DNA from: a virus
DNA: 63,394 nt
Virus record (IMG/VR): IMGVR_UViG_3300030060_002858
Location: 1 to 63,394 of that record
Strand: one strand, 5' to 3'
Shown here: piece by piece, positions 41,326-62,834 of the stretch
Position numbering within the stretch: the stretch's first letter is position 1
Layout: each line of letters begins with the position of its first letter
Notes under the pieces: generated by a model
The model's input: the letters and a program-made list of their open reading frames with translations, nothing else
Told to the model about the DNA's origin: nothing
Database searches by the model: none
Made by a program: the position numbers and the translations under genes

Positions 41326-41698
41326 TTACGATACTCAATTTCAATCAATAGAAGCCCCAGCTCCAGTTCCTGTTCAAAGGGCGACTCAAGTAACAATTGA
41401 AGGCGGTATTTCTTTTGGGCAGTATAACGCAAATAATCCCGGATTAGATGCTATGTATAACATGGTAGGTAACCTGTTAAATACAGGGGCTACTCTATAT
41501 GAAAATATGACAAACCTTGGGTTTAAAAAAGCTGCTTTTGAGGCAGAGGAAAGAAGTAGAGAATTAAAAATGCAATTAGAAGAGCAGTATATGCGAAGTC
41601 AACTTGGTTATGAGCTTTTACAAGATGGCTATGCAGATCTTTTTCAACTAGGTTCTGGTGGCTATACCGGATCTATCATGATGGGAGGGATACAATGA
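41309..41698 (+). CDS. Hypothetical virion protein, 129 aa
   Basis: TAGGAGGTTAGAGG precedes the ATG; overlaps the upstream gene by 17 nt and the next by 4 nt. N-terminus Pro/Gln-rich, then EGGISFGQYNANNPGLDAMY, a helix (KKAAFEAEERSRELKMQLEE) and a Gly-rich end. No family; likely a small internal protein. Confidence 0.6.
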   Translation: MEIIPDYDTQFQSIEAPAPVPVQRATQVTIEGGISFGQYNANNPGLDAMYNMVGNLLNTGATLYENMTNLGFKKAAFEAEERSRELKMQLEEQYMRSQLGYELLQDGYADLFQLGSGGYTGSIMMGGIQ

Positions 41699-44600
41699 CA
41701 TATTCATTTAGAACTCCAGAACAAGAACAACAATTGCAGATTGACCTTGCTAACGCTCAGGCAAGGGCTTCAGTCAACAGAAAAAATAAACAGTTGGAAG
41801 ATCGTAGAGGCTTTACTGCTAACATGGTAGAGCTTGAAAATAAAAAAACATTAAGAAAGAAGAAATTTGAAGAGGCTTTAGGAAAACCGCAAGGAAAAAG
41901 ATATAAGGATATAGAAGAGCTTTATACCTTTTTAGAATCAGAGTACACCTCCGAAGGCCCTGAAGATACTGTAGACATTGTGTCTCTAGATAATCTAAGA
42001 CCTCAATTAAATTCTACTATAAACGATTTAATTCCAACTACAGCTCCTTCTATTTTTAGTCCAACAGGTTTTAGAAGATATGAAAATGTTTCTTTTCCCG
42101 ATGCAATGTCTTTTGCAGGAGAAAACGCTAGAGCTTTAATTAGTAATCAAGCAATAGCCGAATTAGAGTTTGAAGAATTTATTTGGGAACAGGGTGTTAG
42201 TGAAAGAATTAAAAAGTTTAGATCTTGGGAAAAAACAAGTAGAGAAATTACAAGCAGTACTAAAAAAGGAAATCCCTTTGATATGAGTTTAGTTTTTGCT
42301 GATATGGTTCTTTCGTCTATTGTAGATGATCCTAGGGAGTTTACCGAAGAAGAGCTTCGAGCAGAAATTGAAACTAATCCAGTAACATATTCAGAACTAA
42401 ATTTGCTATTTAATAAAAAGATTATGGGATCTGATTTGCTTGATAGGAGTACAACCTTTAGAACAGCTAAAGATTCCACTTCAGTTTTAGCGGCTGTTGT
42501 TCTTAAAGAGTTTGCAGAAAAACAAAAAGATCAAAGACTAGAAGAAATATCATTTGGTCAACCATCAAGATCGGAAGATGTATTTGGCGGAAGAGATTAT
42601 GACCCTAAAACAGGAATGTTTTATGGAATGAATTCTTGGGTATGGTCTGGAGAAGATAACTTCTTTAAAACTTCTATTGCAGACTTTGAAAGAAGACAAG
42701 ATACCTTTAGGCGCAATATGAGTCAAGTAGCTATAGATGGAATGATTGAAGAAGAAATGTTTTTAGAAACATTAGAAACAAATTACAAAAGAGCAAAAGA
42801 ATTTATTGCAGGCACCGCAAGAAGAGTGGCAACAGTTTTTGAAGACTCCAATAAAAAACAAAAAGCAAGAGAATTAAGCAGGGTCATGCAAGGCAATTTA
42901 TTTGAAATAGCTACAGATGCAGCAACAATTAAACCCGGAGAGACTGGACCAGAAGTTCAACTTAAATTAGGAAGTATTGAAGCAACCTTTGATTTTCTAA
43001 TCGAGCAAGAAAAATCAGGAGTTCAGACCAAGGAAGAACATCCTAAAGTTTATGAGCTTTTTGAAAAAGAAGGAATACTAGCTGCCAGCGAGGAAAATCT
43101 TACCCTAATAGAAAGATTAGAACGAAGTAAAAAATTCTTTGTAGATAATGTGGTATTTAAATTTAATCGTATGATGGAAACAATGACTACTCCTGAGGGT
43201 AGATACAAAGTCACTATGATTAATCAGTTTAAAGAGTTTGTAGATCCTAGCATAAATACTTTCCAAGGTGTTATGAAAAAGGTATATACTGCAATATACG
43301 ATAGCGATCCAAACCTTAACTATTATGAAAAGATAAAAATTATGAAATTGTATTCTACAGGTCGGTCTGCTTTTAAAAAAATGTCTTCGGTTGATGAAAA
43401 CCGATCAGCAATGGAAAAACGAATATTAGAAATTACTTCACCGCCTACAGGAACTCCTCCAGCTTCTAGTGTAACACCGCTATCTGTATTTGAAAGAGCA
43501 ACTAAAGTTGAACTAGGAGATCCAGCAAGGGCAGCCGAATTTAGACTAGGAATTATTACCGACTATAAGAATAGGATGATTAAGAACTTTGTAAATAGAT
43601 CCGGAGTAACAGAAAATCAAGCGGTTGCTGCAATTAACAACGCGGTTAAAATAGACACAACTGGAGGAGTACCAACAGCTTATATAGACTACGATGCAGT
43701 ATCTCCTTTAGAGCTTCCTTCTATTGTTGAGGTTATTTTAAATGAAATGGAAACATATAATGTTGTTGGTATTCCGCCAATTTTAGCTGGTCTTGGACAA
43801 CAAGTAAGAGAAGGGCTTGCTATATTTGGTACAGAAATTGATGTTAATACTGAAGAAGGAAAAGCAGCAGCACTCAAGGGCTTTAGAACAGTTACTGCTT
43901 TACATATTCTTTTTGGAGAAAGCGGACAACTAAGAGAAGATGTTGTAAAACAAATTCTAGGAGTTAGCGATCAAAAATACAAAGGAATTAGAAACGTAAT
44001 GGCAATCATTAAATCTATTCACGGAGATACAGCCTTTGGAGATCTGTCAAACTTCTATAATCTTCAAGATGAAAACCAACAGTTAGTTACTTCTGAAAGA
44101 TTTCAAATTGAATTCCAAAGTATTGCTAGGCAAATGCTAGCAGGCTTAGCATACGCTGGTTCTGATTTTAATTTGGTAGATGGTCAAGTATCTTCAGCTA
44201 TTCAAGACCTAGCAAATGGATCTGCTTTTCTAGGACTTGGAACTGGTTTAGATGAAGAGTCTGCTTTAACAGATAGCATAAATAAAACGGTCGGCAATAC
44301 TGGTAGAACTATAAGACAAAACATTAGAAGAAAAATGCAAATGGTTTTCGGTTTGCCTGAAATGGCAACTACAGAAGAATCTGAAGAAGTTTTTAGACCC
44401 ATTGCAACTAGGCTAGGAACAATATTAGGTTTAGATGTAGCTGCTATAGAAGAAGCAAACTATGAATATATAAACGATAGCGAGTATCCTATGGAAGATT
44501 TAACATATATTTTATTTAGAGAGCTTACTTCTAACGGGCATGTGCAACAAAAGCTAGCTAACTACATGAGTGCTCGAATGTCTGTTAGGACTGCAATTCC

Positions 44601-45465
44601 TCTTAGTATTGAAGAGACTCTTGCTATGGCAGAAACTTTTGCTACTCAGTACGGAGAAATTACGCCAAGCACAGTTATGCAAACAGGAGATTCCTCTGCA
44701 AGATTAGTCTTTGCTTCAAATTCTATGGACTCAGACTTCCTTAGAAAATTAAATAATGTAGAAATTCCCTCTACAAGTTACTCGCAAAATAAAACTTCTG
44801 TTGCTATAACCGAAAAACTTAAACGATCTAAACCTAAGTATAGCTCCGCAAGTACGCTTCCTCATTTAGAAGAAACCTTCTTAATCCAAACAGACTCACA
44901 CGAAAACGGTTTTAAAATTAGAATGGCTCAGGATTGGGGAATGGATCAAGAAAGATACAATGATATTATGCAAGAAGCTATTGAGAGAGCAAAAGAAAAT
45001 AAACACGCATCTTTGCCTGATTTTCACTTTGATGTAATATACCAAGCATTAAGTTTAGCTGAAGGTCAAGAAACAGCAGTAGATATGGAGGTAAGACAGA
45101 AAAGAGGTTATTCTTATGGGGGATTGAACTTAGATATTATGGGAAGGAAATCTCTTGAAGAAAAATATACAGTAAGGGTAGCACCTGATATTGGACAGCT
45201 TGCTGGAATGGGATACGGTTCTAACTTTGCTTCTCAAGATATTAGTGTTGAAGAAACAAGAACAAGAGAGGTAGTATCTTTTCCAAAACTAATGGAAGCA
45301 TATAAAATATTTTCCCCAGATCTTTCTACCATGAGTCCTATGGGTCAAGCATCTCAATCTCACTCTGTAGGTTTCGACCTACAAGCAGGAACTTCTAGCG
45401 GAAAAAAAGCAGGTTTTAGAATTTCCTTACCTAACATCACCTTTAAAGGAGACATCATTAAATGA
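41695..45465 (+). CDS. Large internal virion protein, T7 gp15-position
   Basis: 1,256 residues, mainly helical and charged, no membrane segment or known catalytic motif found by eye. It opens FRTPEQEQQLQIDLANAQAR and ends with a small beta segment (FRISLPNITFKGDIIK). In T7 the equivalent site holds gp15, a core protein of the ejected channel; this one is much longer. ATGA overlaps at both ends tie it to its neighbours, so the three core genes are co-translated. Confidence 0.65.
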   Translation: MTYSFRTPEQEQQLQIDLANAQARASVNRKNKQLEDRRGFTANMVELENKKTLRKKKFEEALGKPQGKRYKDIEELYTFLESEYTSEGPEDTVDIVSLDNLRPQLNSTINDLIPTTAPSIFSPTGFRRYENVSFPDAMSFAGENARALISNQAIAELEFEEFIWEQGVSERIKKFRSWEKTSREITSSTKKGNPFDMSLVFADMVLSSIVDDPREFTEEELRAEIETNPVTYSELNLLFNKKIMGSDLLDRSTTFRTAKDSTSVLAAVVLKEFAEKQKDQRLEEISFGQPSRSEDVFGGRDYDPKTGMFYGMNSWVWSGEDNFFKTSIADFERRQDTFRRNMSQVAIDGMIEEEMFLETLETNYKRAKEFIAGTARRVATVFEDSNKKQKARELSRVMQGNLFEIATDAATIKPGETGPEVQLKLGSIEATFDFLIEQEKSGVQTKEEHPKVYELFEKEGILAASEENLTLIERLERSKKFFVDNVVFKFNRMMETMTTPEGRYKVTMINQFKEFVDPSINTFQGVMKKVYTAIYDSDPNLNYYEKIKIMKLYSTGRSAFKKMSSVDENRSAMEKRILEITSPPTGTPPASSVTPLSVFERATKVELGDPARAAEFRLGIITDYKNRMIKNFVNRSGVTENQAVAAINNAVKIDTTGGVPTAYIDYDAVSPLELPSIVEVILNEMETYNVVGIPPILAGLGQQVREGLAIFGTEIDVNTEEGKAAALKGFRTVTALHILFGESGQLREDVVKQILGVSDQKYKGIRNVMAIIKSIHGDTAFGDLSNFYNLQDENQQLVTSERFQIEFQSIARQMLAGLAYAGSDFNLVDGQVSSAIQDLANGSAFLGLGTGLDEESALTDSINKTVGNTGRTIRQNIRRKMQMVFGLPEMATTEESEEVFRPIATRLGTILGLDVAAIEEANYEYINDSEYPMEDLTYILFRELTSNGHVQQKLANYMSARMSVRTAIPLSIEETLAMAETFATQYGEITPSTVMQTGDSSARLVFASNSMDSDFLRKLNNVEIPSTSYSQNKTSVAITEKLKRSKPKYSSASTLPHLEETFLIQTDSHENGFKIRMAQDWGMDQERYNDIMQEAIERAKENKHASLPDFHFDVIYQALSLAEGQETAVDMEVRQKRGYSYGGLNLDIMGRKSLEEKYTVRVAPDIGQLAGMGYGSNFASQDISVEETRTREVVSFPKLMEAYKIFSPDLSTMSPMGQASQSHSVGFDLQAGTSSGKKAGFRISLPNITFKGDIIK

Positions 45466-48400
45466 CAACTCAGGGTATTAATAAGTGGGCAACAGAACCA
45501 CTTCCTTTTTATATGGATAATCAAGAGGAGATGAGAGAATCAGTAGGGCAGTATAACGATTTTGTTCAAGGTTTAAACCCTTTAACAGACGGCGATAATG
45601 CTCTAAATGTTCCTGATCAATTAGTTGTTGACTTAAATACCCAAGAACTAGTTAGAGGTAATTACGGTATTACAGAAGCTATGGCTCTTATGTCAGCTAG
45701 AGGATACTTTGGTGGTATGTTTGAAGACAATCAATATCAACAAAAGTATTCTGCTAATATGCAGCTAGGCATGTACAGGGGTGACAAGTATAAAGAAGGG
45801 GATCTTTTAAAGTTTGGAGCAGACGAAGAAAAACTACTAAGATACTACGCTAAAAAAAGTCCTTGGAACCTTTCAAGACTTTCGGATCCTTTTATAGACG
45901 AGACATTAGATGGCGTAGAAGATATGTGGGACGCTCCTATTTTAAATAACCTTAATGATTCTCCTAATGATTTAATGGAAGCAGAAGCTCCTCCCGATTG
46001 GTCTCCCCAAGAAGCATTAAAGGTTTTGCAATTAAGAGATCCAGAAATGTATGCCGTATATGCTAATAGTTTAGGTGCTTCAAACTTAGAGCAAATTGTA
46101 GGTGAGGCTAAAAACCCATATGATTTTTTCTATACATTAACTGATACGATTCAAACAGCAGCTTTAAATACTACCATTGCAAAGTGGTACGAAGATGCTT
46201 CTAATACAGAGATTGCTTTAGAGTACGCTAGAAACTTTATTATAGAAGGAATTGTTAATGATCCAGACCTCGCAGCAAGCTTAGGAATAACAGCAGGACT
46301 TACTACTATCGGTAGTATTGCCGGTTTAAAGGCTGGTGTTATTGCAACTCTAGCCTATAAAATACCTAAAACTTTATACCAAGGTGTTAAGTATGTTAAG
46401 TTTATAAACATGATTCGCAAAGCAGCTACCACCACCATTAGGTACATGCCTGAAAATATCGGACCTACCTTGATTCAAAAAATCCCAGCCATGAAAAATT
46501 TCAGTAGAGGAGGATTTGTACAAAAGCATTTAATTGCTAATAGAATCGGTGACGCAGGAGAAGGACTTGTAACTGGTGGTTTAGCTGAAGCAGGAAACCA
46601 GTGGAGACAGTCTACTGCTGGAGTAATTGATGAGTTTTCTTATGGCGGCATTTTTAAAGAGGCACTATTTGAAGCAGCCCTATCTCCGGCAATTAACCCT
46701 GCTATTGGGGGTATTTATAGTTTAGGCGGAGGTGCAGTAAACCTTTCCTATATGGTTTCAGATAGTGTTGCTGCAAAGGTTATTGGAGAAAAAGGACACA
46801 AAGCATTTAGTAGATTTATTGATACTACCAAGAAATACCTTAATGCAGATGACGCAATAAAAAGATTAGAAAATGCACAACTATCTTTAGAGTTATCTTC
46901 TCAAGTAAATGATCTTACTTTAGAAGGAACAGAAGTAGAAATTCAAGACGATGAGGCTAAACCAGATAGACCAGATGGAATCCTTAGCATTATACTTGGT
47001 GCTATTTGGGATCAAACTGGACTAAGTAAAGGAGACTTCCTTACTACGGTAAAAGAAATACTAGCAGATTTCCAAGCAGAAGCAGCCGATCCTAGCCACC
47101 CAAGAAATAAACTAGGAGTAGATCAAGAAATTTTACTTTCAGAGATTGCACAAGAAGTTGTTAATAGAAATAGAGATGTAATTTTAGAAGCCAATGACGG
47201 AGATACTTCGTCCTTTGAAAAGATTTTGGGATGGACTCAACATCACTTAAGACTGGCTAGCGATGCTAAAAAAGAAGGAAAGACTTATAAAGAGTATACA
47301 GAAAAAATTATTGCTGATAATGAAGAGTGGAAACTTCTTGCGCCTCAAGTATTAGAAGCAGTCAAAGAAAAGATGGGCGATAAGTTTGACTCTAGTACTA
47401 CAGAAGAAAAACTAGACGTAGCCTTAGAATACATGCAAGAAACAATTCTTAAACAACAACAAGCTATTCGAGATTTAGATACATCTACTAAAGATAAAGA
47501 AGAAACAGCTGATGGTTTAGAAGAAGAACTAGAGGCAGCAGAACCTAAACCTGATCCTAAACCAGAAGACGCTCCTACTGGAGGAGAGCCAAAGGGAGAG
47601 GATGATAAACCAAAAAGAAAACCACCTCCGGGTGACGGTCCTATCGAAAGAAGAGCAGAATTAATTGAAAGATTAAAAAGAATGAAAGAAAGAGCTGAGA
47701 AGGCAAAGGCAGAAATTCAAGAAAAACTAGATAAGGGATTCAAGGGAGTAAATAGAAAAACAAAAGAAAATATTGTAGAGCTTGGTAGAAAGATTGATGA
47801 GGAGCTAGCTTTTGTTGAAGGAGAACTAGAGTCTTTCTTAGAAACTCATGGATTAGAAGACGGTGAAGTTAAAGACTCAATTCAACTTATGAAAACTTTA
47901 GAGACTGAGTTAAATGTTCTAAAAGAAACTCTTTCTAAGGATATTACTGATACAAAGGATGGTATACTATTTGGTTTTGTTCGGTTAAATAAACTAAGGG
48001 CTGCTAGAGAAAAAGCGGGTCTTCTTTTATTCAGAGATCTTAATCTAGAAAATTCTAAAAGAACAGAAGAAGGTAAGCCTGAGCTATCAAAATTACCTTG
48101 GGATAAAACACAAGAAGATACTAGAGAAGCTTGGAAAGAGCTAGCTGAACTAACAAAGGGAGATGAAAGTAAAGCAGCACAGAGAATTAGGCAGTTTGTA
48201 AATGACTTAGAAAGCGGAAAAGAAGAAGGTATTACAATGGGCGGTGTTAAAAATACTTTTACAAACTATATGAATATGCTCGGTACAGTTATGAAAAAAC
48301 ATGAGGAAAGATATAATAAGAGAGAAGATTACAAGAAACATGTGAGTCTATTTAAACAGTACAAAGCAGCTAGAAAGAACTATCAAAGGCTAATGTCTTC

Positions 48401-51400
48401 TATCTATAGATCAGAAACATTAAAAGATATTCAACAGTTTAATGCTATTCAATTACAACAAACAGGGCTAAGAGAAAAGAAAGAGCAAGAGTCTGTATTA
48501 AATGCTAGAAGGGCTTTATTCAATGAGTTCATTGCAGAAAAAGAAGCTAGTGGCGAAGATATTACGATGGAAGAATTTTTAAACTTTTTACATCCTTATT
48601 CAGAACAAGCTCAAACAGAAGCAGCGGCTATTGAACGAGATGCTAGCAAAGGAAAAGAAACTCTTACCATTGAAGAAGCGAAAAGAATTGAAGGCAAGGA
48701 ATATCAATCTGTAAAAGATCAACTTAAGTATTTGTCTATTGGTAAACTTTCCGGAATTAATAAGGGTGGTAGGTTTAAATATGTTCGGGGTAATTGGGAA
48801 CACCAGCATAGTGATTCTGATATTCTAGGAACATCTTATGATCCTGAGTTTGTTCTTAATGAATCAAACTACGGTAAAGAATTAGATACTGATGTAGTAT
48901 TTACCAGAGATTTAAGATCCGATCTAGAAGCTTGGATTGAACTAGAGCAAAAGATTTTAGCTATTGCAAGTCATACAGATCCATCTAAAGGTATTGCTGC
49001 TTGGAGAATTCACGCTGCATTGCCTCCTTACTTTAGAGATTTCTTGGGATTAGGTCCTTATGTGGTGTTTGGTAGAGGAAATATCCTTGGTGCTGAAAAC
49101 TCTGCTTTGATGCCTACTGAAGCTTTAGACCATAACTCGTTAGACCTTACCGATGAAAAAAGTATATCAGAACTTCAAAGATATCAACATCTATTAAGAT
49201 ACGATCCTCAAAAAATCTTGGCTATTATTAGAGCATGGAAAGACCGTGGACTAGCTAAAATTGATGGATGGGAAGCTAGAGAAACATCTTTTATTTTAGA
49301 CGAGCTTTCAAAAGAAATGCAAAACGAAGGAGACCCTAACTCTGCTGCTAACTTATTCTATACTCAAAAACTTTTAGAAAGAGTTCACAATCAATCTAGA
49401 GCTATTAATATGGCGAACTGGACAAAACGCCAAGGAGAAGGTGGCGGTTATATTATAGCCGTTGATCCAGATACTGGATTCCCTACGGAGTTTACCAACA
49501 GTGCTGGAACTTATAAAAGAGAAGCTCTATACCACGCAAAAGAAAGACTACAGTTTCTATTTGGCACCAGAAGATTTACAGAGCTACAACAAGTAGCTAA
49601 ATCTCTAGGGTTACTAACAGAAATTAGTCGAACAAAAGAAGACGGAAGAACAGAAATTATTATACGAGATAGAGAAGGCAATGTAAGAGCAGATGTAGTT
49701 GAGTATCTTACAGAACAAATTGGAGAGCAAACTGATATTAACATTACTGATTTAGGAAATGGTAACGAAGACTATGCATCAGCTCAAATCGCAGGCTACG
49801 GTATAGTAGACTTTATGAGTCAAAAACCAATGCCAGCTGTCCAACAAAGAAGTGTTGTTCTAGATAAAGATGGTAATACTGTTCCTACTGAAAGCAATGA
49901 AGATAGTGAAACCGCTTCTTTACCTACTGATATCCGCCTTCCTCAAGAAGGAGAAACAAACGCAGCTATGCCCATTCCTGTAATGAAACTAGCTGAGTTA
50001 ATTCAAAACTTTAAGGCTAGAGAAAGAATGCGGTATATCTTAAGTAAGGATACTTTTACGGACGCAGAAAGAGCTGCCTATAAAGAATGGGTAGAAGCTA
50101 AATGGTCTGATGTTTTAGCTGGAATGGATCCTGATCCTACCGGAGAAAACGCACAGATCTTTGTAGTTCCCCAAATAGTAGGCGGATCTCTACATGAAGC
50201 TGTAATGTCCCGAGCCGAGGCAAAAGAATTCTTACTAGAACTTATGTTAGATATCCCAAGAAACGCAGAAGCATTTATTCACGACCAAGTTACAAGAAAA
50301 CGCGGAAGTGCTTTAATGTTTAACGAGGGTCAGGGAGAGAAGGAAATTAATGTTTTAGACAAAGAAGGAAACATTGTAACAAAGAAAATTAAAGACCTCA
50401 ATGTTGAGGGTGGTCTTATGTTTGACCTCAGCCACGGGGATCACATGCTTGTTCCTCTAGGACGAATTGGTGAAATCATGGCAATTGAAGCAATGGGTCC
50501 ACAGTTTGCTGGGCTTACCGATATTGTAATAGACAAGGTTGTGCAATACTCAGATGCAGCAAGAAAAGAAGGAACACTAGATGAACTGCTAGCTTTTGAA
50601 AACTGGAGTGACAGAACAGCTAGCGGTGTATTTGAAATGAAACTACTTTCTTTAGCAGGAGATGCAGACTCTACTATTGAAATTGAAGTAGATGGTAAAA
50701 CTAAAAAAGTAAATGCACCTAAACTTTTAGATATGATTAGAGATGGAGTTATAGAACCGGGAACAAAAGCAGAGTCAGATTTTTATCTATCAACAGCAAT
50801 TATTGCGGCACCTTTATTTGCTATGGGTAAGAAAGGCGGACTACAAACTCTATTTGATGTTATTAATAAAAACGATATTCGTAGTGTAAAAGATCTTCAA
50901 GAAAAAGAAGCTGGTCTATCTGAAGGGGATAAAAAGAAGTTAAAACTATTGCGAGAAATATTTAAAGTTCCTGTTATGAGAAGAATTTATGGCGGATCTA
51001 AACCAAACTTTGATGTAGAATTTTCAGAGGGAGGCAAGGGATACGAGGCTTTAAAGAAAGCAGGCATGACTTCTGAAGAAGATATTGCTGCTCTTAAAAA
51101 AGTTTTATTCTCTGGAAACGGAGGAGCTACGCACATCTCTAAGACTATTCTTATTGACTATGCATTGGGAGTTAACGATAGAACTAAATATCTTGTACAA
51201 AAGTATTTGGGTATTGATCAAACCAGAAGCGTACCATTGTTAGACACATGGAAAGAATTAGTTAAACTAGATAATAAAGCCTTGTCTGCTGAGTTAGAAA
51301 GATCTCAAACCCACATCAGACTATTAGAAGATTCTTTAAGACAGAAATATGAGATTGATAATCCTGCTGACTTAACATTTGAACAATGGAAAAAAACAAA

Positions 51401-54400
51401 AGGATATAACAAGAGGTTTGAAAAAGCCAAGGCTTACCTAGAAGAACAAGAAAAAGCAAGTAATCCTATTCACCCCGGTACTGTAGCCTATGAAACATTT
51501 AAAAAAATACTTCAAACCACAGATCAACTAAGTGCTGAAAGTATTGGATACTTTAGAGCACTAAATATTCTTAACTCGCAAGAGTATAGGTTAAACGTAG
51601 ATCGACTACAGTTTGTAGCTCAAAGAGTATTGGGGTTAACAGACTTTAGTGTGCAAGACTTTATGGGATTTGAGCAGCACGCCTTGTATCAGCTTATGTT
51701 GCCCACAGCAACTTCAGGAAGAACATATCCGTTAAACACAACCGGACTAAATCCTTTAGGCATCTCTTTAGAAAGAGTAGCAAGAATGCAACCCTTTGTA
51801 AAGGATGGAGTTAGGTACAATGACTTTATTGATTATGTAGAAAGAAACCCCGGACTAGATGAAGCTGAGTTTAAAAAGGATCTAGAAGATTACCTAACCA
51901 ATCACGACGGAGCAGATGCTTTCGGTGCTTTTGATCTTGAAGATCCATCTCTTAGGAAGTTTGAAACTAGAGAAGAGGCTGAAGCTGCTCTTGAAGATCT
52001 AATGATTAAACAAGAGATGATGCTATGGTCTAGTTATGATAAGCCACCTAAGGAAGTATTTAAAGACTATACCGCAGAAGACAGTGATGAAGGATTCTTT
52101 AATAATCTTCTTACACAGTGGCATCAGCACTCAGAGCAAAGGCACTTGACGCTAAAAGAAGAAATAGCTTTCGAACAAGCCGAAGCAGATAGAATGATAG
52201 CAGACGGCAAGAGACCCACAGATAGTCCAGTTCTACAATTAAAAAATAAAGCTGGTGGGTTGGTCAATAAGAAACTAGTTGAAGCATCTGAAGGAGAGTT
52301 TAGATATCTTCCTTATCATGTTTCTGAAAGAAATCCTTCTTCGGTAATGATTCACACAGCAGGTCAAAGAGGACCACTATCTATGCGTCCTCGATTTAAA
52401 GAAAGACAGTACTATGATATGGGACTATTAAGTTTACAGAAGAGGCACGTTCAAGATAGGATTACTAAAGCAATGGGGCCTATTGAAACTATTAGAACAA
52501 ACGCAGATTCTCTAACAGAAGAAGATGCTATGATTAGCGGAGTTAACATAGGACACGCTCCAGCTTGGGATTCTAACAAACTGCCTCAGGTACTTCCTAC
52601 GCTTCCTAGAGCCATTGCCGCAGATCTTAGAACAGACATGGGTCAGAGAGCAGCTAAGATTTATTATGAAGTTTCTATCTGGGCTGAAGAAAGAGGACTC
52701 GCAGATAAACTAAAAGAAGATCCAGAAAACTTTGTACGTTTTTATATTATTAGAGAAATTGAAGAAGAGCGCAAGAGACAACTTAGAAGGACCAGAGAGA
52801 GTAATATTACAAATGAGAATGATATTATTGCAGCAAGAAATAAATGGATTGGAGGACTGCACGATATTAGTAGATACTCTAGAGATTTGAAAGATCCAGA
52901 AGGTAGGCGAGGTCTTCAATTGTTTACAGAAAGACAATCCTTTGCCGCTGTAAATCCAGCTGAAGAAGGCGAACTATACATGGATCTTCTAGTTAATGTA
53001 GCCGACGAAAACAATCCAGATGGTTTCTTGTTTACTAGAAGTCTTTTAGATGACGCATTTAAATTAGGGCCAGTACCTACGGGTGAAAGAATTATTATCA
53101 CGCCAGAAAATGTATCAGATGAAAAGACAATGGAAGAGATATTTGAATTTAAGGATCTTAACTTAGAATCTTGGGCAGTACAAAATGCTGACTTTAATAA
53201 ATTCTTAGCGGCTCAGTTATTTACAGAAGCAATCGGCAAAGCCATGCTAGAGTTTGAAGGCGGTAAGTATAAGAGTGTAGCGTTTACTCCAGATCAATGG
53301 GAATTTGCAATAGATCCAGAAGACCGCAAACCTTTAATTGCACTAGCAAAACAAATGGTCATGGAAATGCCTTCGTTTGAACTTACAGTAGGAATTGAAG
53401 AGTCGCTATACAACGACGATAGTAAGATTTCAACTTATAGGATGACCATTAACAGAGAAGGCGTTGCTCCTGAAAAAGGAAAGGAACGAGATAAGAAGGC
53501 CGTACCAACTCAACAAAGAAATGTGTTTGGGGCAGCAACGGGCTTTGGTATGCAGGTGATGACTAGAACTAAGTTAAAATCTAAAAAGGCAAAGCTTGCT
53601 CTTACACCAGAGCACAGAATGCAGTTATTCTCAATACTAGAAAACGCTCAAACCATGCAGGGAATTACTTTAAGCAATTGGTTAAATAAAGGATTAGGCG
53701 TGAAGTTAACAGAGGACGGTCAGATTGTTAGAGCGGTTCCTATCCAAGATAGAGTAGCAGATGCAATGGGCTATACTGCTCGTCCTATTAGAGACGCAGC
53801 TATTAACGAAGCTGAGGCCCTAAGAAGAGTTAGTTCGGTAGACGGTGAAAGTAGTGTTAGAATGATTGACGACCCTCTTACCAGCGTAAGGGGAGCTAGA
53901 GTTAATGTAGTAGATTTAGATTACTACGCTAGGGATAACTCTTCTTGGGGAGACGGGTCTATTAATACTGCTTGGCTTGAGTCTTACGTTAGTCCTATTA
54001 CTAAACTAATTCATATGCTAGATAGATCGGGAATTCAAGCCGGTAGTGAATTGGCAGATCTTAAGTTAGAACTACAGTCTTTAATTGCTTTAACAAGAGA
54101 ACAGGACAATATGTCTAGTGTTGTTGTAAGATTAATTGCATTAAAACTAGAAGATCCTTCTTTAGATTTTAGAAAAAATAAAATCAAAATGTTTTTTACA
54201 GACGCAGAAAGAAACGGAGATGACTTTAATACTGCTATTAACAAAGCTGACTCAATTATTTTAAAAATTAAAAAACACACATCAGACTATGGAGTTACTA
54301 GAAAACTTCCCGGATATTACGAAGCTAGGCAGTTTATCACAACTCAAGAATATAGTCCTGCTAACTTTGAAGAAACACTTCTTGCTTTTAAAAAGTATCT

Positions 54401-57400
54401 AGGAGATCCTACATTTGTTGGAACAGATGATCAACTAGAAGATGCACTTAGATTTGCTTTTAGAGATTTAGACGAAGAAAGATTAGATATTGACGAAGCT
54501 ATGAGTTTCTTTGGAGGAGAAAGAATTGCTTCAGAATCTTTAGAATTATTTACTAAAGGAACTGAAGAAGAGCTTTTAACATCACTAGGGCCAGCAATTG
54601 AAGACAATCCTGAGTTAGGATTAATGGTCAGAGGTCCAATAAGAAACTTAAATAAATTAATTAGAGAACAAAAAGTTCTTTCAGAAGAAGCTGGGGTAGC
54701 TATTAAGGCTATGCTATTTAGAGCAAATCAGTTAAATCCAGATATACTTCTAAATCTAAAGTTTGAATTTATTACAGAGCGATTAGAGGGAGTAGCCCAA
54801 GCAGAAAGAAAGGGAGATAATTTTACAATTAGACTAGGCTCTAACTTTAAAACTATTACAAAAGATAATCCTTTAACTGCAATTCAAATAGTTGCTCACG
54901 AACTAGCTCACGTTGCTAGGCTAAAATTTATTGCAGATAACTCTAGAGAATATAATGGGTTATTAGGACTTTGGCAAAGCGACGAAGGCAGGGACATGTT
55001 ACGAAAGGCTGTTCAAGCTTTTCATGGTGGAGTATTTACTTCTGAAGCTAAAAAAGAATATGAAAGATATTTAAATAATCCTGAAGAATTTATCGCAGGA
55101 TTTATGTCATACTTTCTTTTAGGAGACACAAATGTTGAGATTAGAGATTTAACTAAAAAACAAAAGGGAATGTTTAATGAGTTAACTTCTATTGTAAAAA
55201 GAATGATGACTTATGTTTCTAATATTTTAAACAATCTTCAAAATGCGTTTTACACTGGAAATGAAAAGTTTGATAAAGAGGTAAGAGCACTTGCTCTTCG
55301 AGTATGGGGACATGATGCAGCGACAGGAAAGCCTGCCCTAAGACAACTTGATTCTGGTCAAGTTGCAGATGCTACATATGGATGGAGTCAAAGATTTAAA
55401 GATACTAAAGAATTTGTAGTAGACCCTGATAAAGATTTACAAATAATTAAAGGACACAAAGAATTAGCTAGACTAAACTCAAAGGCTGAACTTACAGAAG
55501 AAGAAATTCTTACTAAACATAAAATCAATGACTTCTTATACGCAGAAGGTACTTATGCTCAAGAAAACTTTGGTTTGAATGGCCTATCACGCTCTGATTA
55601 TTTAGCAACTCTTCAACAGTTAAAAGAAAAATATCCATCTAAAAAACGAAGTGATTTAGAAAATGATTCTAGAAATAACGATGAATCTATTATTGATATA
55701 CGAGAGATACTTGCTCAAGGTACTAATAAAGAAAAGGCCACTGCTTTAGCTTACCTTATGGATGCTGTATCAAAAACATACGGAGATCCTATAGCTAAAG
55801 GTCTAGGTGCCATTGGAAACAGTATAGCAGATAGCATTCCTAATGTTAAGCAAGCAGCGGCAAAACAAGCATTATTTAACTTACTACTAGGTGATACCGG
55901 ATCGGGAGAAACATTTGGTGCTGAGTTCTTACTGCCTATTCTTATTACGCAAATGCTAGATGATAATATTGTTACTGCTACGGGTAATTATCTAAACACA
56001 GCAGGAACTCCTTCTGTTAGAACAAATATTCAAAAGCTAGAGACGTTCTCAACAAGTATTAGAACCAGTAAAAATCAAATTGCAGCTGCTCTTAGAGGTA
56101 TTACAGATGTAGCAAAGAGAACAGTATTTGAGTCGTTTGTTAGTGACACCGATAAAAAAGTTATGGCTAAGTTAGACAAACAGCTTATTACAAGTGTAAC
56201 TAAATTAAACGAAGGAGAGGCAGAGTTTACTTTCGATCTTTCAGAAGATGCATTAGGGGTAGCACTAAATGATAAACAAAAAGCAGTTATTCTAAAAGCT
56301 CTTGGAGAAATTAAAAATACGTTTACTCAAATGGCAGAAGATAATATTAGAGACGGAATATCTATTGGTGAATTTGGCGAAGGTTTTACGCAAGTAGTTC
56401 CATATCGTTTAGGCAATTCATTGCGTGCCGAAGATGTAAGAGCACCAGAGTTTAAAGATACAATGACTAGCTTAATTCAAAAAAGATTATCTCAAGGAAT
56501 AGAAAGCGGTCTTCTAGATGGAACAGTAATGGCTGCGGTAGGACTTATCCCGCACTTTGGAAATAACACAGCAGCAAGAGCAGATCTAGAAAGACTTAAT
56601 GCTCAGTATCCTCAATTGGTAGATGCTATTTTAGCCGAAGCAGTTAAACAAGAGGGAGATACTGAAAGACAAACTAAAGAAAAAGTTAACCTATTAAAAG
56701 CAAAACTAAATGATACCGCTAATGTAGATTCTTTTGTAGAGTTACAAGTAGGTACTGGGCGTTTCTTAAACAAACTTGCACAGGGAACAATCACTTTAGA
56801 TAGCATATTTACTAGGGCTAGTCAACGTATTGCTTTTGTAACAGAGTATAAGACTGCTGTAGAAAATGCTAACAAAAGATCAGCAGATGCTCGAAATAGA
56901 TTAGATGCTTTAACAAAAGAAAGTGGAGACATTCGCTCTAATACATTCTTTAGTCCTACCACAAAAGATACTCCTGTAGCAGCCTTTGATAGAGCAGCTG
57001 ATAACCCAATTGAATTTATTTTTAGAAACTTTCACAAGAGAGCTTCTAGGGGAGCGTACTATCCTAACGATAACTGGGCAATCCCTAGTGTAAGAGAAGC
57101 ACTAGAAGCTAATGAAGATATCCAAAAATATTTTGTAACAGACATGGCAGCATTAGCTGAAAATGCAAAACAAGGTCTATTTAATGATATTGCTGAAAAG
57201 AAAATGTTTAGAGAGTTCGGAGTACACGGAAACATTGAGCATGTATTAACTCTTATTAGTAGCGTAGCCTTTAGCGATTATTCAGTAATGGCTCCAGACG
57301 GAACGTCAATAGAAGGTCAACGAGTAAAACAAGTTGTAGAAGTATTAAGAAACAAACATAATGCTTTAAGAAATATTATTGAAAAACCAGAAGGAACTAA

Positions 57401-59141
57401 TACGGGTTCAGTAGAAAGTTCTATTGTAGATTATGCTAATGCTGCAACAAGAATTGCATATGGAGGCAACCTATTCCTTGCTACTACTATTGTAGAAAAC
57501 GGATACAGTGCAGTAGACGAACTAATCGGAAGAGGAAATATTGTAGGATTTTTAAGAAGTGCTTTAGCTCCCTTTAGTCAACTTACAAATAGAACAGAAA
57601 GAGCAAGAGTATTAAAAGATTTTGCTTACCTAATTGAGTCAATGACACAAGGATTTTTACCTGAATACGAAAGACCGTTAGGTACAGAAGGAGATAGTAC
57701 GGTATTAAAAGCACTCAAGGGCTTGGGTTCTGCAAACATGAGGCTTGCTAAGTGGCAACTTAAAAACATTACCGCAGCCCGTGCAATAAATATTAGATCT
57801 TTTATTCAGTCATATTTAAAACCAAACAAAGATGGAACGTCTAAGTTAAGTGAATTAGCTAGATTGTTAGAAGAATCTAATCTTTCTAAATTACCAATTG
57901 AAGAACAAGAACCAGCTTTAAAAGGAATACTAAGAAAGGCAAAGATTGGAACAAACAACTTACCAATAATTTCTTACCTTATTAAAGCAGGATTATTAGA
58001 ACCTACTAGATTAAGTATGCTTTTAGAAATGATGCCTGCCGAAGGACGTTACAGTCCATTTGAAATGACTCAGGAATTGTTTACCACTAAATCTCCTAGA
58101 ACTAATGCAAAAGAGTTTCAACAAAAACTTGACATTATTACAGCCCTTAAAAATATTGAAAGAAGATATGTAGAAGAAGCTATTCTAGCTCCCAATGCAT
58201 TTGATACTGCTACTGGTCCTAGAGGAACATTTGAACAAATCTTTGAAATCTATCGTAGATATCCCGTTCTCTTTGCAAGCCAACAAGTAATTAGAAAGTC
58301 AAGCAGGGTTGGAGTAGTTAGAGCAGGTTTTAGTTTAACTTCCTTGATTCTTTTAGATATGCTTTATATGGCTGCTCTATCAATGGCAGCAGGTAAACCA
58401 CTTGAAGATGTTGTAAAGGATTATGAAGAAGCTCCTCTAGCTAGTGCAGGCAAGCTTCTTTTAAGAACTCCAATCTTTGGTAGATGGTTAGCTATGGTTG
58501 GTCCAGTTTTAGCTAAAGGTCTAGAAGCTATTGAAAAAGGTCGTATGCCATCTGGATATGAACTTACTCAAGCTTTCCAGTCTGGTTCTGGTTTTATTCC
58601 TGTAGCAGCTTTAGGAGCAGCAGCAGGTTCTCTTCTAACAACATTCCAAACTATAGGGGGCGTATTTGGACTTAATGAGATGCCTAGAGGACAAGAACTT
58701 GTTAACTCTTTACGATTAATTCCAGCAGGAGACGCAGCAATTAGACTGGCTATCTTCTCCTTAGCGGGAGATAGTATTGAAAGGAAGAAAAGACGAGGAC
58801 CAAGCGGAGCAGGATCTTATGGAGGACAGCAGCCAGTCACAGGGCTTCACTATGGAATGCACAGAAACGATGCTGCTTTTACTTGGGAAAGCATGTACAA
58901 GGACATGATGACTCCTATTCTAAATGGCGAGTTACCTCAGGTTGTAAAAGAGTATTATAAAGACATAGAACAAATGGATGCAATGCAAGAGCTGGGAGCC
59001 ACGCCCGCCTCTCCACAACCCGCCGCGCCGCCCGCAAAACCCGCGCCGTCGCAGCCAGAGATCACTACACCTAAAGTAGATCCTGTAGACTCTATACTAA
59101 ATCAAGGACCTACCAAGGCACCTGATACTTTACTCGAATAG
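45462..59141 (+). CDS. Giant virion protein with N4-type RNA polymerase motifs
   Basis: 4,559 residues (about 0.5 MDa), 13.7 kb, in the T7 gene 16 position. Hydrophobic segments near 268-305 and 4285-4312; an acidic Pro linker near 693-735 leads into long coiled coils. Polymerase-like core: D1717-R-T-A-S-G resembles motif A (T7 D537-GSCSG), and R1831-E-I-F-K1835-V-P-V-M-x3-Y1843-G fits motif B Rx3Kx7YG (T7 KRSVMTLAYGSK). D-to-K spacing is 118, against 111 in N4 virion RNA polymerase and 94 in T7. The motif T/DxxGR is not clear (candidate 1611-1616) and motif C is not located with confidence (best candidate around H2365). HELAH at 3146-3150 with NPEEF near 3208 suggests a zinc metallopeptidase. 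The last 50 residues are Pro/Ala-rich and G/C-rich in DNA. Likely ejected with the genome to transcribe early genes. Function is inferred. Confidence 0.7.
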   Translation: MTTQGINKWATEPLPFYMDNQEEMRESVGQYNDFVQGLNPLTDGDNALNVPDQLVVDLNTQELVRGNYGITEAMALMSARGYFGGMFEDNQYQQKYSANMQLGMYRGDKYKEGDLLKFGADEEKLLRYYAKKSPWNLSRLSDPFIDETLDGVEDMWDAPILNNLNDSPNDLMEAEAPPDWSPQEALKVLQLRDPEMYAVYANSLGASNLEQIVGEAKNPYDFFYTLTDTIQTAALNTTIAKWYEDASNTEIALEYARNFIIEGIVNDPDLAASLGITAGLTTIGSIAGLKAGVIATLAYKIPKTLYQGVKYVKFINMIRKAATTTIRYMPENIGPTLIQKIPAMKNFSRGGFVQKHLIANRIGDAGEGLVTGGLAEAGNQWRQSTAGVIDEFSYGGIFKEALFEAALSPAINPAIGGIYSLGGGAVNLSYMVSDSVAAKVIGEKGHKAFSRFIDTTKKYLNADDAIKRLENAQLSLELSSQVNDLTLEGTEVEIQDDEAKPDRPDGILSIILGAIWDQTGLSKGDFLTTVKEILADFQAEAADPSHPRNKLGVDQEILLSEIAQEVVNRNRDVILEANDGDTSSFEKILGWTQHHLRLASDAKKEGKTYKEYTEKIIADNEEWKLLAPQVLEAVKEKMGDKFDSSTTEEKLDVALEYMQETILKQQQAIRDLDTSTKDKEETADGLEEELEAAEPKPDPKPEDAPTGGEPKGEDDKPKRKPPPGDGPIERRAELIERLKRMKERAEKAKAEIQEKLDKGFKGVNRKTKENIVELGRKIDEELAFVEGELESFLETHGLEDGEVKDSIQLMKTLETELNVLKETLSKDITDTKDGILFGFVRLNKLRAAREKAGLLLFRDLNLENSKRTEEGKPELSKLPWDKTQEDTREAWKELAELTKGDESKAAQRIRQFVNDLESGKEEGITMGGVKNTFTNYMNMLGTVMKKHEERYNKREDYKKHVSLFKQYKAARKNYQRLMSSIYRSETLKDIQQFNAIQLQQTGLREKKEQESVLNARRALFNEFIAEKEASGEDITMEEFLNFLHPYSEQAQTEAAAIERDASKGKETLTIEEAKRIEGKEYQSVKDQLKYLSIGKLSGINKGGRFKYVRGNWEHQHSDSDILGTSYDPEFVLNESNYGKELDTDVVFTRDLRSDLEAWIELEQKILAIASHTDPSKGIAAWRIHAALPPYFRDFLGLGPYVVFGRGNILGAENSALMPTEALDHNSLDLTDEKSISELQRYQHLLRYDPQKILAIIRAWKDRGLAKIDGWEARETSFILDELSKEMQNEGDPNSAANLFYTQKLLERVHNQSRAINMANWTKRQGEGGGYIIAVDPDTGFPTEFTNSAGTYKREALYHAKERLQFLFGTRRFTELQQVAKSLGLLTEISRTKEDGRTEIIIRDREGNVRADVVEYLTEQIGEQTDINITDLGNGNEDYASAQIAGYGIVDFMSQKPMPAVQQRSVVLDKDGNTVPTESNEDSETASLPTDIRLPQEGETNAAMPIPVMKLAELIQNFKARERMRYILSKDTFTDAERAAYKEWVEAKWSDVLAGMDPDPTGENAQIFVVPQIVGGSLHEAVMSRAEAKEFLLELMLDIPRNAEAFIHDQVTRKRGSALMFNEGQGEKEINVLDKEGNIVTKKIKDLNVEGGLMFDLSHGDHMLVPLGRIGEIMAIEAMGPQFAGLTDIVIDKVVQYSDAARKEGTLDELLAFENWSDRTASGVFEMKLLSLAGDADSTIEIEVDGKTKKVNAPKLLDMIRDGVIEPGTKAESDFYLSTAIIAAPLFAMGKKGGLQTLFDVINKNDIRSVKDLQEKEAGLSEGDKKKLKLLREIFKVPVMRRIYGGSKPNFDVEFSEGGKGYEALKKAGMTSEEDIAALKKVLFSGNGGATHISKTILIDYALGVNDRTKYLVQKYLGIDQTRSVPLLDTWKELVKLDNKALSAELERSQTHIRLLEDSLRQKYEIDNPADLTFEQWKKTKGYNKRFEKAKAYLEEQEKASNPIHPGTVAYETFKKILQTTDQLSAESIGYFRALNILNSQEYRLNVDRLQFVAQRVLGLTDFSVQDFMGFEQHALYQLMLPTATSGRTYPLNTTGLNPLGISLERVARMQPFVKDGVRYNDFIDYVERNPGLDEAEFKKDLEDYLTNHDGADAFGAFDLEDPSLRKFETREEAEAALEDLMIKQEMMLWSSYDKPPKEVFKDYTAEDSDEGFFNNLLTQWHQHSEQRHLTLKEEIAFEQAEADRMIADGKRPTDSPVLQLKNKAGGLVNKKLVEASEGEFRYLPYHVSERNPSSVMIHTAGQRGPLSMRPRFKERQYYDMGLLSLQKRHVQDRITKAMGPIETIRTNADSLTEEDAMISGVNIGHAPAWDSNKLPQVLPTLPRAIAADLRTDMGQRAAKIYYEVSIWAEERGLADKLKEDPENFVRFYIIREIEEERKRQLRRTRESNITNENDIIAARNKWIGGLHDISRYSRDLKDPEGRRGLQLFTERQSFAAVNPAEEGELYMDLLVNVADENNPDGFLFTRSLLDDAFKLGPVPTGERIIITPENVSDEKTMEEIFEFKDLNLESWAVQNADFNKFLAAQLFTEAIGKAMLEFEGGKYKSVAFTPDQWEFAIDPEDRKPLIALAKQMVMEMPSFELTVGIEESLYNDDSKISTYRMTINREGVAPEKGKERDKKAVPTQQRNVFGAATGFGMQVMTRTKLKSKKAKLALTPEHRMQLFSILENAQTMQGITLSNWLNKGLGVKLTEDGQIVRAVPIQDRVADAMGYTARPIRDAAINEAEALRRVSSVDGESSVRMIDDPLTSVRGARVNVVDLDYYARDNSSWGDGSINTAWLESYVSPITKLIHMLDRSGIQAGSELADLKLELQSLIALTREQDNMSSVVVRLIALKLEDPSLDFRKNKIKMFFTDAERNGDDFNTAINKADSIILKIKKHTSDYGVTRKLPGYYEARQFITTQEYSPANFEETLLAFKKYLGDPTFVGTDDQLEDALRFAFRDLDEERLDIDEAMSFFGGERIASESLELFTKGTEEELLTSLGPAIEDNPELGLMVRGPIRNLNKLIREQKVLSEEAGVAIKAMLFRANQLNPDILLNLKFEFITERLEGVAQAERKGDNFTIRLGSNFKTITKDNPLTAIQIVAHELAHVARLKFIADNSREYNGLLGLWQSDEGRDMLRKAVQAFHGGVFTSEAKKEYERYLNNPEEFIAGFMSYFLLGDTNVEIRDLTKKQKGMFNELTSIVKRMMTYVSNILNNLQNAFYTGNEKFDKEVRALALRVWGHDAATGKPALRQLDSGQVADATYGWSQRFKDTKEFVVDPDKDLQIIKGHKELARLNSKAELTEEEILTKHKINDFLYAEGTYAQENFGLNGLSRSDYLATLQQLKEKYPSKKRSDLENDSRNNDESIIDIREILAQGTNKEKATALAYLMDAVSKTYGDPIAKGLGAIGNSIADSIPNVKQAAAKQALFNLLLGDTGSGETFGAEFLLPILITQMLDDNIVTATGNYLNTAGTPSVRTNIQKLETFSTSIRTSKNQIAAALRGITDVAKRTVFESFVSDTDKKVMAKLDKQLITSVTKLNEGEAEFTFDLSEDALGVALNDKQKAVILKALGEIKNTFTQMAEDNIRDGISIGEFGEGFTQVVPYRLGNSLRAEDVRAPEFKDTMTSLIQKRLSQGIESGLLDGTVMAAVGLIPHFGNNTAARADLERLNAQYPQLVDAILAEAVKQEGDTERQTKEKVNLLKAKLNDTANVDSFVELQVGTGRFLNKLAQGTITLDSIFTRASQRIAFVTEYKTAVENANKRSADARNRLDALTKESGDIRSNTFFSPTTKDTPVAAFDRAADNPIEFIFRNFHKRASRGAYYPNDNWAIPSVREALEANEDIQKYFVTDMAALAENAKQGLFNDIAEKKMFREFGVHGNIEHVLTLISSVAFSDYSVMAPDGTSIEGQRVKQVVEVLRNKHNALRNIIEKPEGTNTGSVESSIVDYANAATRIAYGGNLFLATTIVENGYSAVDELIGRGNIVGFLRSALAPFSQLTNRTERARVLKDFAYLIESMTQGFLPEYERPLGTEGDSTVLKALKGLGSANMRLAKWQLKNITAARAINIRSFIQSYLKPNKDGTSKLSELARLLEESNLSKLPIEEQEPALKGILRKAKIGTNNLPIISYLIKAGLLEPTRLSMLLEMMPAEGRYSPFEMTQELFTTKSPRTNAKEFQQKLDIITALKNIERRYVEEAILAPNAFDTATGPRGTFEQIFEIYRRYPVLFASQQVIRKSSRVGVVRAGFSLTSLILLDMLYMAALSMAAGKPLEDVVKDYEEAPLASAGKLLLRTPIFGRWLAMVGPVLAKGLEAIEKGRMPSGYELTQAFQSGSGFIPVAALGAAAGSLLTTFQTIGGVFGLNEMPRGQELVNSLRLIPAGDAAIRLAIFSLAGDSIERKKRRGPSGAGSYGGQQPVTGLHYGMHRNDAAFTWESMYKDMMTPILNGELPQVVKEYYKDIEQMDAMQELGATPASPQPAAPPAKPAPSQPEITTPKVDPVDSILNQGPTKAPDTLLE

Positions 59142-59970: not shown

Positions 59971-60060
59971 ATCGACTAGGGGGTCACGAATTTATCTGAG
60001 GTGATGTATAGTATTGCGCTGTTGCAGTACCCCCCGTAACCCTGTTCGAAAGGATTTGGA
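59971..60060 (+). other. Composition boundary, intergenic
   Basis: From the dockerin stop on, A/T-rich sequence gives way to G/C-rich sequence. The gap holds GGGGGT (59979 region) pairing with ACCCCC (60030 region) around a 45-nt loop and a TTCGAAAGGAT ribosome-site-like motif (60045-60055) that recurs at 60866. No gene seen. The abrupt change could be a recombination joint or an assembly join. Confidence 0.6.
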
Positions 60061-60090
60061 ATTATTGTTCTTAGCTGGATACTGTTCGTC

Positions 60091-60210
60091 ATGATGGTTG
60101 TTGTCATGGTACTGGCAACCATCTCACCGTTGTTCTTTTCTTCTGAAGAGAACGATGAGGATTATCTGGAACCGGAAGAAGTAGACCCGGAGACTGGAAG
60201 GTACCACTAA
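60091..60210 (+). CDS. Small membrane protein, 39 aa or longer
   Basis: ATG 60091 gives MMVVVMVLATISPLFF and a strongly acidic tail ending PETGRYH. The frame stays hydrophobic upstream to a non-standard ATT at 60061 (IIVLSWILFV...), which lies 6 nt after GAAAGGA. A full-length membrane helix needs that extension, so the true start may be ATT 60061. Single-pass protein with acidic cytoplasmic or external tail; no family. Confidence 0.5.
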   Translation: MMVVVMVLATISPLFFSSEENDEDYLEPEEVDPETGRYH

Positions 60211-60219
60211 CACACACCG

Positions 60220-60249
60220 CCTCACGCTCCCTTTACTGGGAGCATGAGG
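60220..60249 (+). terminator. Hairpin after the small membrane gene
   Basis: CCTCACGCTCCC pairs with GGGAGCATGAGG, 11 of 12 positions paired, loop TTTACT. Very similar in arms to the hairpin at 60713-60742 after the next gene. No T-run follows. Confidence 0.65.
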
Positions 60250-60256
60250 TATTCCG

Positions 60257-60292
60257 CAGGACTAACCCCGTCAAGGTGACGGACTAATCCTG
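60257..60292 (+). promoter_or_regulatory. Two-part hairpin upstream of the 60316 gene
   Basis: CAGGA/TCCTG outer stem and CCGTCA/TGACGG inner stem around loop AGG. It ends 24 nt before the start codon and could mask or present the ribosome site of that gene. ATCCATATGGAT (60310-60321), a perfect palindrome, spans the start codon itself. Confidence 0.5.
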
Positions 60293-60315
60293 TTACTCTA
60301 ATGGAGGGTATCCAT

Positions 60316-60702
60316 ATGGATGCTACCATTACCGTACATCGGCGTAACACTGGAACGCCGATTGAGTTCAGGACGAACGTCCTGTTCGCGTCTTCTTTCG
60401 AGAAGGCACTTCAGGATGGCAACGCCACGGAGCTGGAGCAGATGATCGTCAAGATCAAGAAGCTTCACGACTACGTGCCGGAGTCCGAAGACAGCTTCGT
60501 CTCGGAACCTCATGTCTTCGACACGATTCGTGCTGACGGACATCGATGGTACTGTGTCGCTCGTACCTGCGTCACGGCTCAGGAGTTTGAGCATCTTGAG
60601 AGAGGTCTGGAAATCATGTGGGTTCCCGAACCCTACCAGACCCTCACCGACTGGACCTTGGACATCAAGGAAGCGTCGAAGGATCTCAAGCTGTTCATCT
60701 GA
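60316..60702 (+). CDS. Hypothetical protein, 128 aa, G/C-rich codons
   Basis: Start at ATG 60316 (MDATITVHRRNTGTPIEF) because GGAGG lies 8 nt upstream; ATG 60301 contains that site itself. Codons end mainly in G or C, unlike all genes before 59,970. Soluble, mixed alpha/beta (LEQMIVKIKKLHDYVPESED, RWYCVARTCVTAQEFEHLE). No family recognised. Hairpins flank it on both sides. Confidence 0.7.
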   Translation: MDATITVHRRNTGTPIEFRTNVLFASSFEKALQDGNATELEQMIVKIKKLHDYVPESEDSFVSEPHVFDTIRADGHRWYCVARTCVTAQEFEHLERGLEIMWVPEPYQTLTDWTLDIKEASKDLKLFI

Positions 60703-60712
60703 ACTCACCAGC

Positions 60713-60742
60713 CCTCACTGTTCCCGAAAGGGAATGGTGAGG
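60713..60742 (+). terminator. 13-bp GAAA-tetraloop hairpin after the 60316 gene
   Basis: CCTCACTGTTCCC pairs with GGGAATGGTGAGG (13 pairs, two of them G-T) closed by a GAAA tetraloop. It ends the 60316 transcript or stabilises it; CTTAAGG follows with no T-run. Confidence 0.7.
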
Positions 60743-60754
60743 CTTAAGGATTGT

Positions 60755-60956
60755 GGTTGCAAAGGATGCAACCAATAGAGATGTCTTCTCTAACACAAGG
60801 TAGTGTGGTGTAGAGAAGAGAGAATGTATGCAGACCCGTACTTGTTGTGCTGGGTCGAGGCCCTATTCGAAAGGATGTAATTTGGGCCTGTTCGTGTTTG
60901 TGGATCTAGCACGTATGCTAGGTTCGGTTCCTAACCCATCTGGTCTCAGAAGAGAC
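60755..60956 (+). promoter_or_regulatory. Structured leader of RNA polymerase 2 (hairpin array)
   Basis: Within 202 nt lie six successive hairpins: GGTTGC/GCAACC (60755-60773, loop AAAGGAT), CTTCTCTA/TAGAGAAG (60785-60818), GACCC/GGGTC (60833-60856), AGGCCC/GGGCCT (60858-60889, loop containing GAAAGGAT), CTAGC/GCTAG (60906-60921), GTCTC/GAGAC (60943-60956, tetraloop AGAA). Two place a ribosome-site-like AAAGGAT in the loop. No stretch like this exists in the A/T-rich part. A folded regulatory leader for the polymerase downstream is the simplest reading. Confidence 0.6.
60824..60880 (+). CDS. Possible 18-aa leader peptide
   Basis: ATG 60824 follows AGAGAAGAGAGA and reads MYADPYLLCWVEALFERM to TAA at 60878-60880, which falls in the loop of the 60858-60889 hairpin. 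Ribosomes reading it would disturb two of the leader hairpins. Only position and ribosome-site fit support it. Confidence 0.3.
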   Translation: MYADPYLLCWVEALFERM

Positions 60957-60980
60957 AGAAAGAATTTACTCTATGAGTAA
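60882..60980 (+). CDS. Possible 32-aa leader protein coupled to RNAP 2
   Basis: TTG 60882 lies 6 nt after GAAAGGA. The frame stays open (LGLFVFVDLARMLGSVPNPS ...) to TAA 60978-60980, overlapping the ATG of RNA polymerase 2 by 8 nt. The polymerase start has only a weak ribosome site, so coupling to this reading frame would explain its translation. Tentative. Confidence 0.3.
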   Translation: MGLFVFVDLARMLGSVPNPSGLRRDRKNLLYE

Positions 60981-62811: not shown

Positions 62812-62834
62812 CCTCAAGTCCTACACACCACGAT

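Follow-up and report, generated by a model that had tools for sequence, protein, structure and literature searches.

The window, by which we mean the whole 63,394-nt stretch of viral DNA that was analysed (IMG/VR record IMGVR_UViG_3300030060_002858), contains at 45462-59141 (+) a single intact open reading frame coding for a protein of 4,559 amino acids, hereafter the giant; both its coordinates and its length were exact in the original prediction. The giant gene is the last of a cassette of three, placed after the terminase gene and ordered small-medium-giant, in which successive genes overlap by 4 nt: a 129-aa protein (41309-41698, +), a 1,256-aa protein (41695-45465, +), for which no family match was found, and the giant itself. 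The virion module had been described as T7-type, and the genome is indeed so: genes for RNA polymerase (RNAP; 6125-8581, +; PF00940, E 7e-81), primase-helicase, DNA polymerase, head-tail adaptor, capsid, tube/nozzle and terminase were found, and the T7-type RNAP, the capsid with its scaffold, the tube/nozzle proteins and the T7-type terminase are the features of an Autographiviridae-like phage. The one positional claim to be corrected is that the giant gene occupies the T7 gene 16 position, since it comes after terminase, at the end of the cassette. Like T7 gp16, the giant is the largest and last of three proteins of increasing size encoded within a T7-type virion gene block (T7 gp14-15-16 are also in this order), but it is 3.5 times longer, its gene follows terminase, and Pfam detected no lysozyme-type domain in it. 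Between the head-tail adaptor and scaffold genes, a match to GtrB-like glycosyltransferases (O-antigen conversion type) was seen at 25476-26162.

No annotated phage and no library family matched the giant. Relatives were found via the terminase, then via the giant itself; further searches of IMG/VR (including one with the DNA pattern of motif B, see below) and of genome contigs brought the number of contigs with a giant, apart from the window, to no more than six. These are G001 (57 kb), G002 (82 kb), G008 (29 kb), G011/L037 (45 kb, a near twin of G008), L066 (43 kb) and G006 (20 kb, partial), with region identities to the window of ~50% for G001, ~47% for G002, ~26% for G008 and L066, and ~24% for G006. 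All six were aligned; because of the twin pair they amount to five independent relatives (24-50% identical). In G002 the T7-type RNAP is divided between two open frames (620 + ~250 aa; G002:C1:39576-40737), the gene being either truly disrupted or affected by a sequencing error.

Residues 1139-2333 of the giant (48876-52460, +) form a conserved region which we propose to be a diverged single-subunit RNAP domain, on the basis of a motif-level match to the virion RNAP (vRNAP) of phage N4. The motif A candidate is D1717-R-T-A-S-G (50610-50627, +; D, R and S invariant) and the motif B candidate R1831-xxx-K1835-x-P-xx-R-xx-Y1843-G (50952-50993, +; R, K, P, R and Y invariant). Both read as originally given (D1717-RTA-SG and R1831-EIF-K1835-V-P-VM-RRI-Y1843-G), with an A-to-B spacing of 118. 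In shuffled copies of the giant, the pattern R...K.......YG is expected 0.035 times, and 0.0012 times when accompanied by D...[SN]G 85-140 residues upstream; with the N4-like K.P (a proline two residues after the lysine) as well, the count was 0 in 20,000 shuffles. These figures are not decisive by themselves because the motifs had been picked after being seen, and conservation is the better test. The 773-residue alignment of the window and its relatives has 61 invariant positions, among which are D1717, R1718, S1721, R1831, K1835, P1837, R1840, Y1843, D2158 and D2161; of the 63 lysines, only K1835 and one other are invariant. The YG of motif B, present in the window, is conserved as to its tyrosine only, the glycine being replaced in G008 (YE) and L066 (YS).

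The original prediction regarded both motif C and the DxxGR element as unclear. For motif C a candidate that had been missed does exist, the invariant D2158-L-E-D2161 (51933-51944, +). As to DxxGR/TxxGR, none could be identified upstream of motif A: between R1522 and D1717 there is no invariant arginine and no matching element. An element reminiscent of GRxY, S2085-x-R2087-x-Y2089 (51714-51728, +; S, R and Y invariant), is found after motif B. Two other candidates, HDQ at ~1608 for DxxGR and N2035 for a mutated motif C, were rejected for want of profile support.

The giant family was then compared, by exhaustive ungapped profile comparison, with an alignment of 12 Schitoviridae-type vRNAPs, in which the reference residues, located in the N4 record, are R424, D559, R666, K670, Y678 and D951. 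Motif B on motif B (N4 RGIAKNPLTITIYGSG versus window REIFKVPVMRRIYGGS) came top of ~1.38 million diagonals. Of three window sizes, one gave D2158 and N4 D951 as reciprocal best, and in the others the pair ranked 2-9; this match is supportive and not decisive, because some 500 reciprocal-best pairs arise in the same matrix. D1717 on N4 D559 ranked only ~49 in its best window, while the residue is invariant and the spacing is right. Against a small T7 RNAP family, motif B ranked 1-2 and motif A 4-8 in the best windows, and the R2087 element ranked 4-6 against T7 R425 in one window. In the positive control, T7 versus N4, all four motifs ranked 1-5 and hhalign gave a P of 0.0012. For the giant family versus the N4 family, hhalign P values were 0.28, 0.17 and 0.041, i.e. 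not significant over the whole domain; in the 0.041 alignment, only the motif B part is credible, since the site on which N4 motif A is set there lacks conservation among the giants. A global profile alignment to N4 scored better than column shuffles, but 12 of 100 block shuffles scored as high, and it was not used as proof. Searches of Pfam, PHROG and the PDB with single sequences, members and profiles returned nothing for the polymerase-like domain. As far as the sequences tell, the giant-N4 similarity is thus of the motif level.

Structure prediction with AlphaFold gave low-confidence models for residues 1139-2333 (6 sequences in the alignment, pLDDT 46.9, pTM 0.34) and 1490-2262 (7 sequences, pLDDT 51.4, pTM 0.31). 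Foldseek found nothing with either of them, such searches being meaningless at this model quality. Locally, the low-confidence prediction has a helix at 1821-1842, at the end of which R1831-Y1843 lie, and places D1717 in a loop preceding a helix; both placements are those seen in known enzymes. A polymerase fold for 1139-2333 is therefore a candidate only, and unproven.

Further along the giant, HELAH (residues 3146-3150; 54897-54911, +) is a zincin metallopeptidase signature, followed by PEEFIA at ~3207; HELAHVARLKF and PEEFIA are kept in the window, G001, G002 and G008. N4 vRNAP has HELVH at 2228, which falls within the C1 domain described in PMC12633501, and a zincin after the polymerase domain has been reported for N4-like RNAPs (PMC5512222; PMC12633501). 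Against the VCO139 vRNAP, the strongest full-length profile match was zincin on zincin (P 0.014); the third match covered giant residues 1831-1846 and lay ~100 residues past VCO139 motif A, where the motif B of that enzyme sits. Upstream of the polymerase-like region, the orthologues of G008 and L066 contain insertions matching PF18760 (ART-PolyVal), two stretches in the former (E 1.6e-26; L027 11072-14554) and one in the latter (E 4e-11; L066 2-2900), which were not found in the giant of the window. Additional HExxH motifs were noticed upstream in the same two orthologues. ART-PolyVal domains have also been reported with N4-like RNAP modules (PMC5512222).

A very large multidomain phage protein combining an MPTase (zincin) with effector-type domains, here the PF18760 of the orthologues, is what characterizes the polyvalent proteins of PMC5512222, from which the giant differs in that its polymerase-like region matches no library model and its genome is T7-type. 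We conclude with good confidence, and independently of the polymerase question, that the giant is a protein of the polyvalent kind. With its place as last gene of an ejection-type cassette, its zincin and the ART-PolyVal domains of its orthologues, it is also, very likely, an injected one.

Just downstream of the giant, a 612-aa single-subunit RNAP is encoded at 60973-62811 (+; PDB 6dt7, E 3e-4). DxxGR and motifs A, B and C are all there, and the corresponding residues (R219, D316, K376, Y384 and D565) are invariant across relatives. Its profile matched those of N4 RNAP2 and N4 vRNAP equally well (P 7e-6 each) and that of T7 RNAP almost as well (4.5e-5), so that it may be affiliated with any of the three. 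It is like N4 RNAPII (gp15 + gp16; PDB 6DT7) in having the DxxGR of gp15 and the motifs A, B and C of gp16, but on one chain instead of two. After the giant gene, it is again present in G001, G002, G008, G011 and L066, i.e. in every relative which extends far enough, the order in G001 being giant, 612-aa RNAP, tRNAs and T7-type RNAP. This co-conservation of a second polymerase beside the T7-type one is a solid finding by itself. It fits the report that a vRNAP homologue is, in nearly all species which have one, accompanied by a heterodimeric RNAPII (PMC4496689) and was, for that reason, counted for the N4-type reading of the giant.

The 612-aa gene also stands out by its composition. GC content rises there from ~37% to 50-59% (60000-63394), and does so at the same place in relatives. 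In the window, the 612-aa gene uses AAA in 0 of 40 cases, ATA in 0 of 37, AGA in 2 of 45 and TTA in 0 of 55, against 225 of 324, 42 of 275, 178 of 249 and 183 of 460, respectively, for the giant gene. For these nearly avoided codons the phage has matching tRNAs of its own: Lys-TTT, Ile-TAT, Arg-TCT and Leu-TAA. The simplest reading of the codon use is that the 612-aa RNAP would be made first, with host tRNAs only. Eight sigma-70-like sites were counted in the region versus 3.1 expected, none of them diagnostic; the host RNAP may be what transcribes the module.

Among known systems, N4 vRNAP (gp50, Schitoviridae; mini-vRNAP, PDB 2PO4/3C3L) is like the giant in its motif B (R-x3-K-x-P-x5-Y), in what may be a shared motif C aspartate, in its great size, its place as last of a three-gene ejection-type cassette (gp52-gp51-gp50 have the same size order as the 129-, 1,256- and 4,559-aa proteins) and the HExxH zincin following its polymerase region; N4 too encodes a second RNAP. 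The giant differs from it by being ~1,000 aa longer and by residing in a genome that is T7-type and encodes a T7-type RNAP. As TxxGR was not found and the overall similarity is not significant, the giant cannot be counted as a member of the N4 vRNAP family.

The vRNAP originally predicted survives in part: motif B and the motif C candidate match N4 in the right order and at invariant residues, and both the architecture and the second RNAP fit, whereas motif A is only moderately supported. The best single explanation, to which we would give about an even chance, is that the giant is an active, injected and diverged virion polymerase of the N4 type. Invariant motif residues, the low chance expectation of the A + B pair, motif B as best diagonal and the reciprocal-best D2158 speak for it, as do the zincin, the ART-PolyVal of the orthologues, the N4-like cassette order and the downstream second RNAP with its early-type codon use. 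What speaks against it is the missing TxxGR, the weakness of motif A versus N4 and a non-significant profile similarity, where the T7-N4 control shows all four motifs, together with the low-confidence models and the lack of Pfam, PHROG or PDB matches. If it is correct, the N-terminal part of the giant would be followed by a highly diverged domain of the N4-vRNAP type at ~1139-2333 and then by the zincin peptidase; D1717 and D2158 would be the metal-binding pair, and R1831, K1835 and Y1843 would lie on the O-helix. Carried in the virion, it would enter the cell with the DNA and transcribe a first early module including the 612-aa RNAP, after which the latter and the T7-type RNAP would take over. 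Such an N4-like programme of three single-subunit RNAPs in a T7-type lineage, with the injected giant, an immediate-early 612-aa enzyme tuned to host codons and the T7-type enzyme, is a tentative proposal which we hold with more doubt than the activity of the giant.

Alternatively, the giant would be an injected polyvalent or ejection protein whose conserved central domain is unrelated and mostly helical, its motifs being coincidental, with host RNAP acting early, then the 612-aa and T7-type enzymes. The non-significant whole-domain similarity, the absent TxxGR, the weak motif A, the ~500 reciprocal-best pairs and the lack of a usable predicted fold all agree with this alternative, which is a real possibility falling well short of probable: coincidence hardly accounts for an A + B pair expected about 0.001 times, for a motif B that gives the best diagonal versus N4, or for the invariance of precisely the catalytic-type residues, with K1835 one of so few invariant lysines. 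A domain derived from an N4-type polymerase could also have lost catalysis and been retained within the ejection machine for structure or DNA binding, transcription being started by host RNAP. The lack of TxxGR, the weak motif A and the loss in relatives of the G of YG would then be explained, but a dead enzyme does not need D1717, R1831, K1835, Y1843 and D2158 to be invariant, and we find it unlikely. Finally, the window SGRTYP...NPLG resembles T7 GRVY...NPQG, and its invariant S, R, Y and following G, along with the rank of R2087 versus T7 R425, could point to an active polymerase in which the motif order is rearranged, the GRxY element coming after motif B. This seems very improbable, as the element is without support against N4 or from structure, and D2158, the best motif C candidate, comes after R2087, so that the order is not a simple cyclic one. 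Whether active, inactive or rearranged, a polymerase-derived domain is on the whole probable.

Reports of virion-carried single-subunit RNAPs have been limited to N4-like phages or prophages (PMC5512222). If the giant works as proposed, two strategies of transcription so far assigned to distinct groups of phages would be united in one T7-type phage, and injected polymerases would not be confined to N4-like phages; the virion-RNAP strategy would have moved across phage families, or would survive there in a diverged form. One could then also test in what way transcription begins, in the absence of the host enzyme or ahead of it, in a phage that itself encodes a T7-type RNAP.

Ahead of the GC-rich module lies a conserved structured leader (60215-60325; L024 4219-4330; L026 3560-3670), present in one copy per genome, without Rfam match and with two hairpins, of which the second has CTAAC/CTAA on both flanks and stems that differ but pair in the three genomes. 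Within the leader lies the hairpin CCGTCA-AGG-TGACGG (60268-60282, +), the stem of which has another sequence in G001 and G002 and pairs there too. One possible reading of the leader is an RNA element; a hairpin promoter is a speculative one. Ahead of the 612-aa RNAP gene, another hairpin with an AGGA/AAGGA loop was seen at 60754-60774 (TGGTTGCA-AAGGA-TGCAACCA), with GTACA-AGGA-TGTAC as counterpart in G002 (L026, reverse complement of 10855-10868). It was rejected as an N4-type promoter: in the N4 hairpins (557-573 and 4546-4562) the loop reads TCC on the coding strand, so that the loop seen here is on the opposite one. These AGGA-loop hairpins, which we take to resemble CsrA/RsmA binding sites, are perhaps a phage CsrA sponge leader. 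In the relative G001, a Pistol ribozyme scored above the Rfam gathering score (L024 8656-8712).
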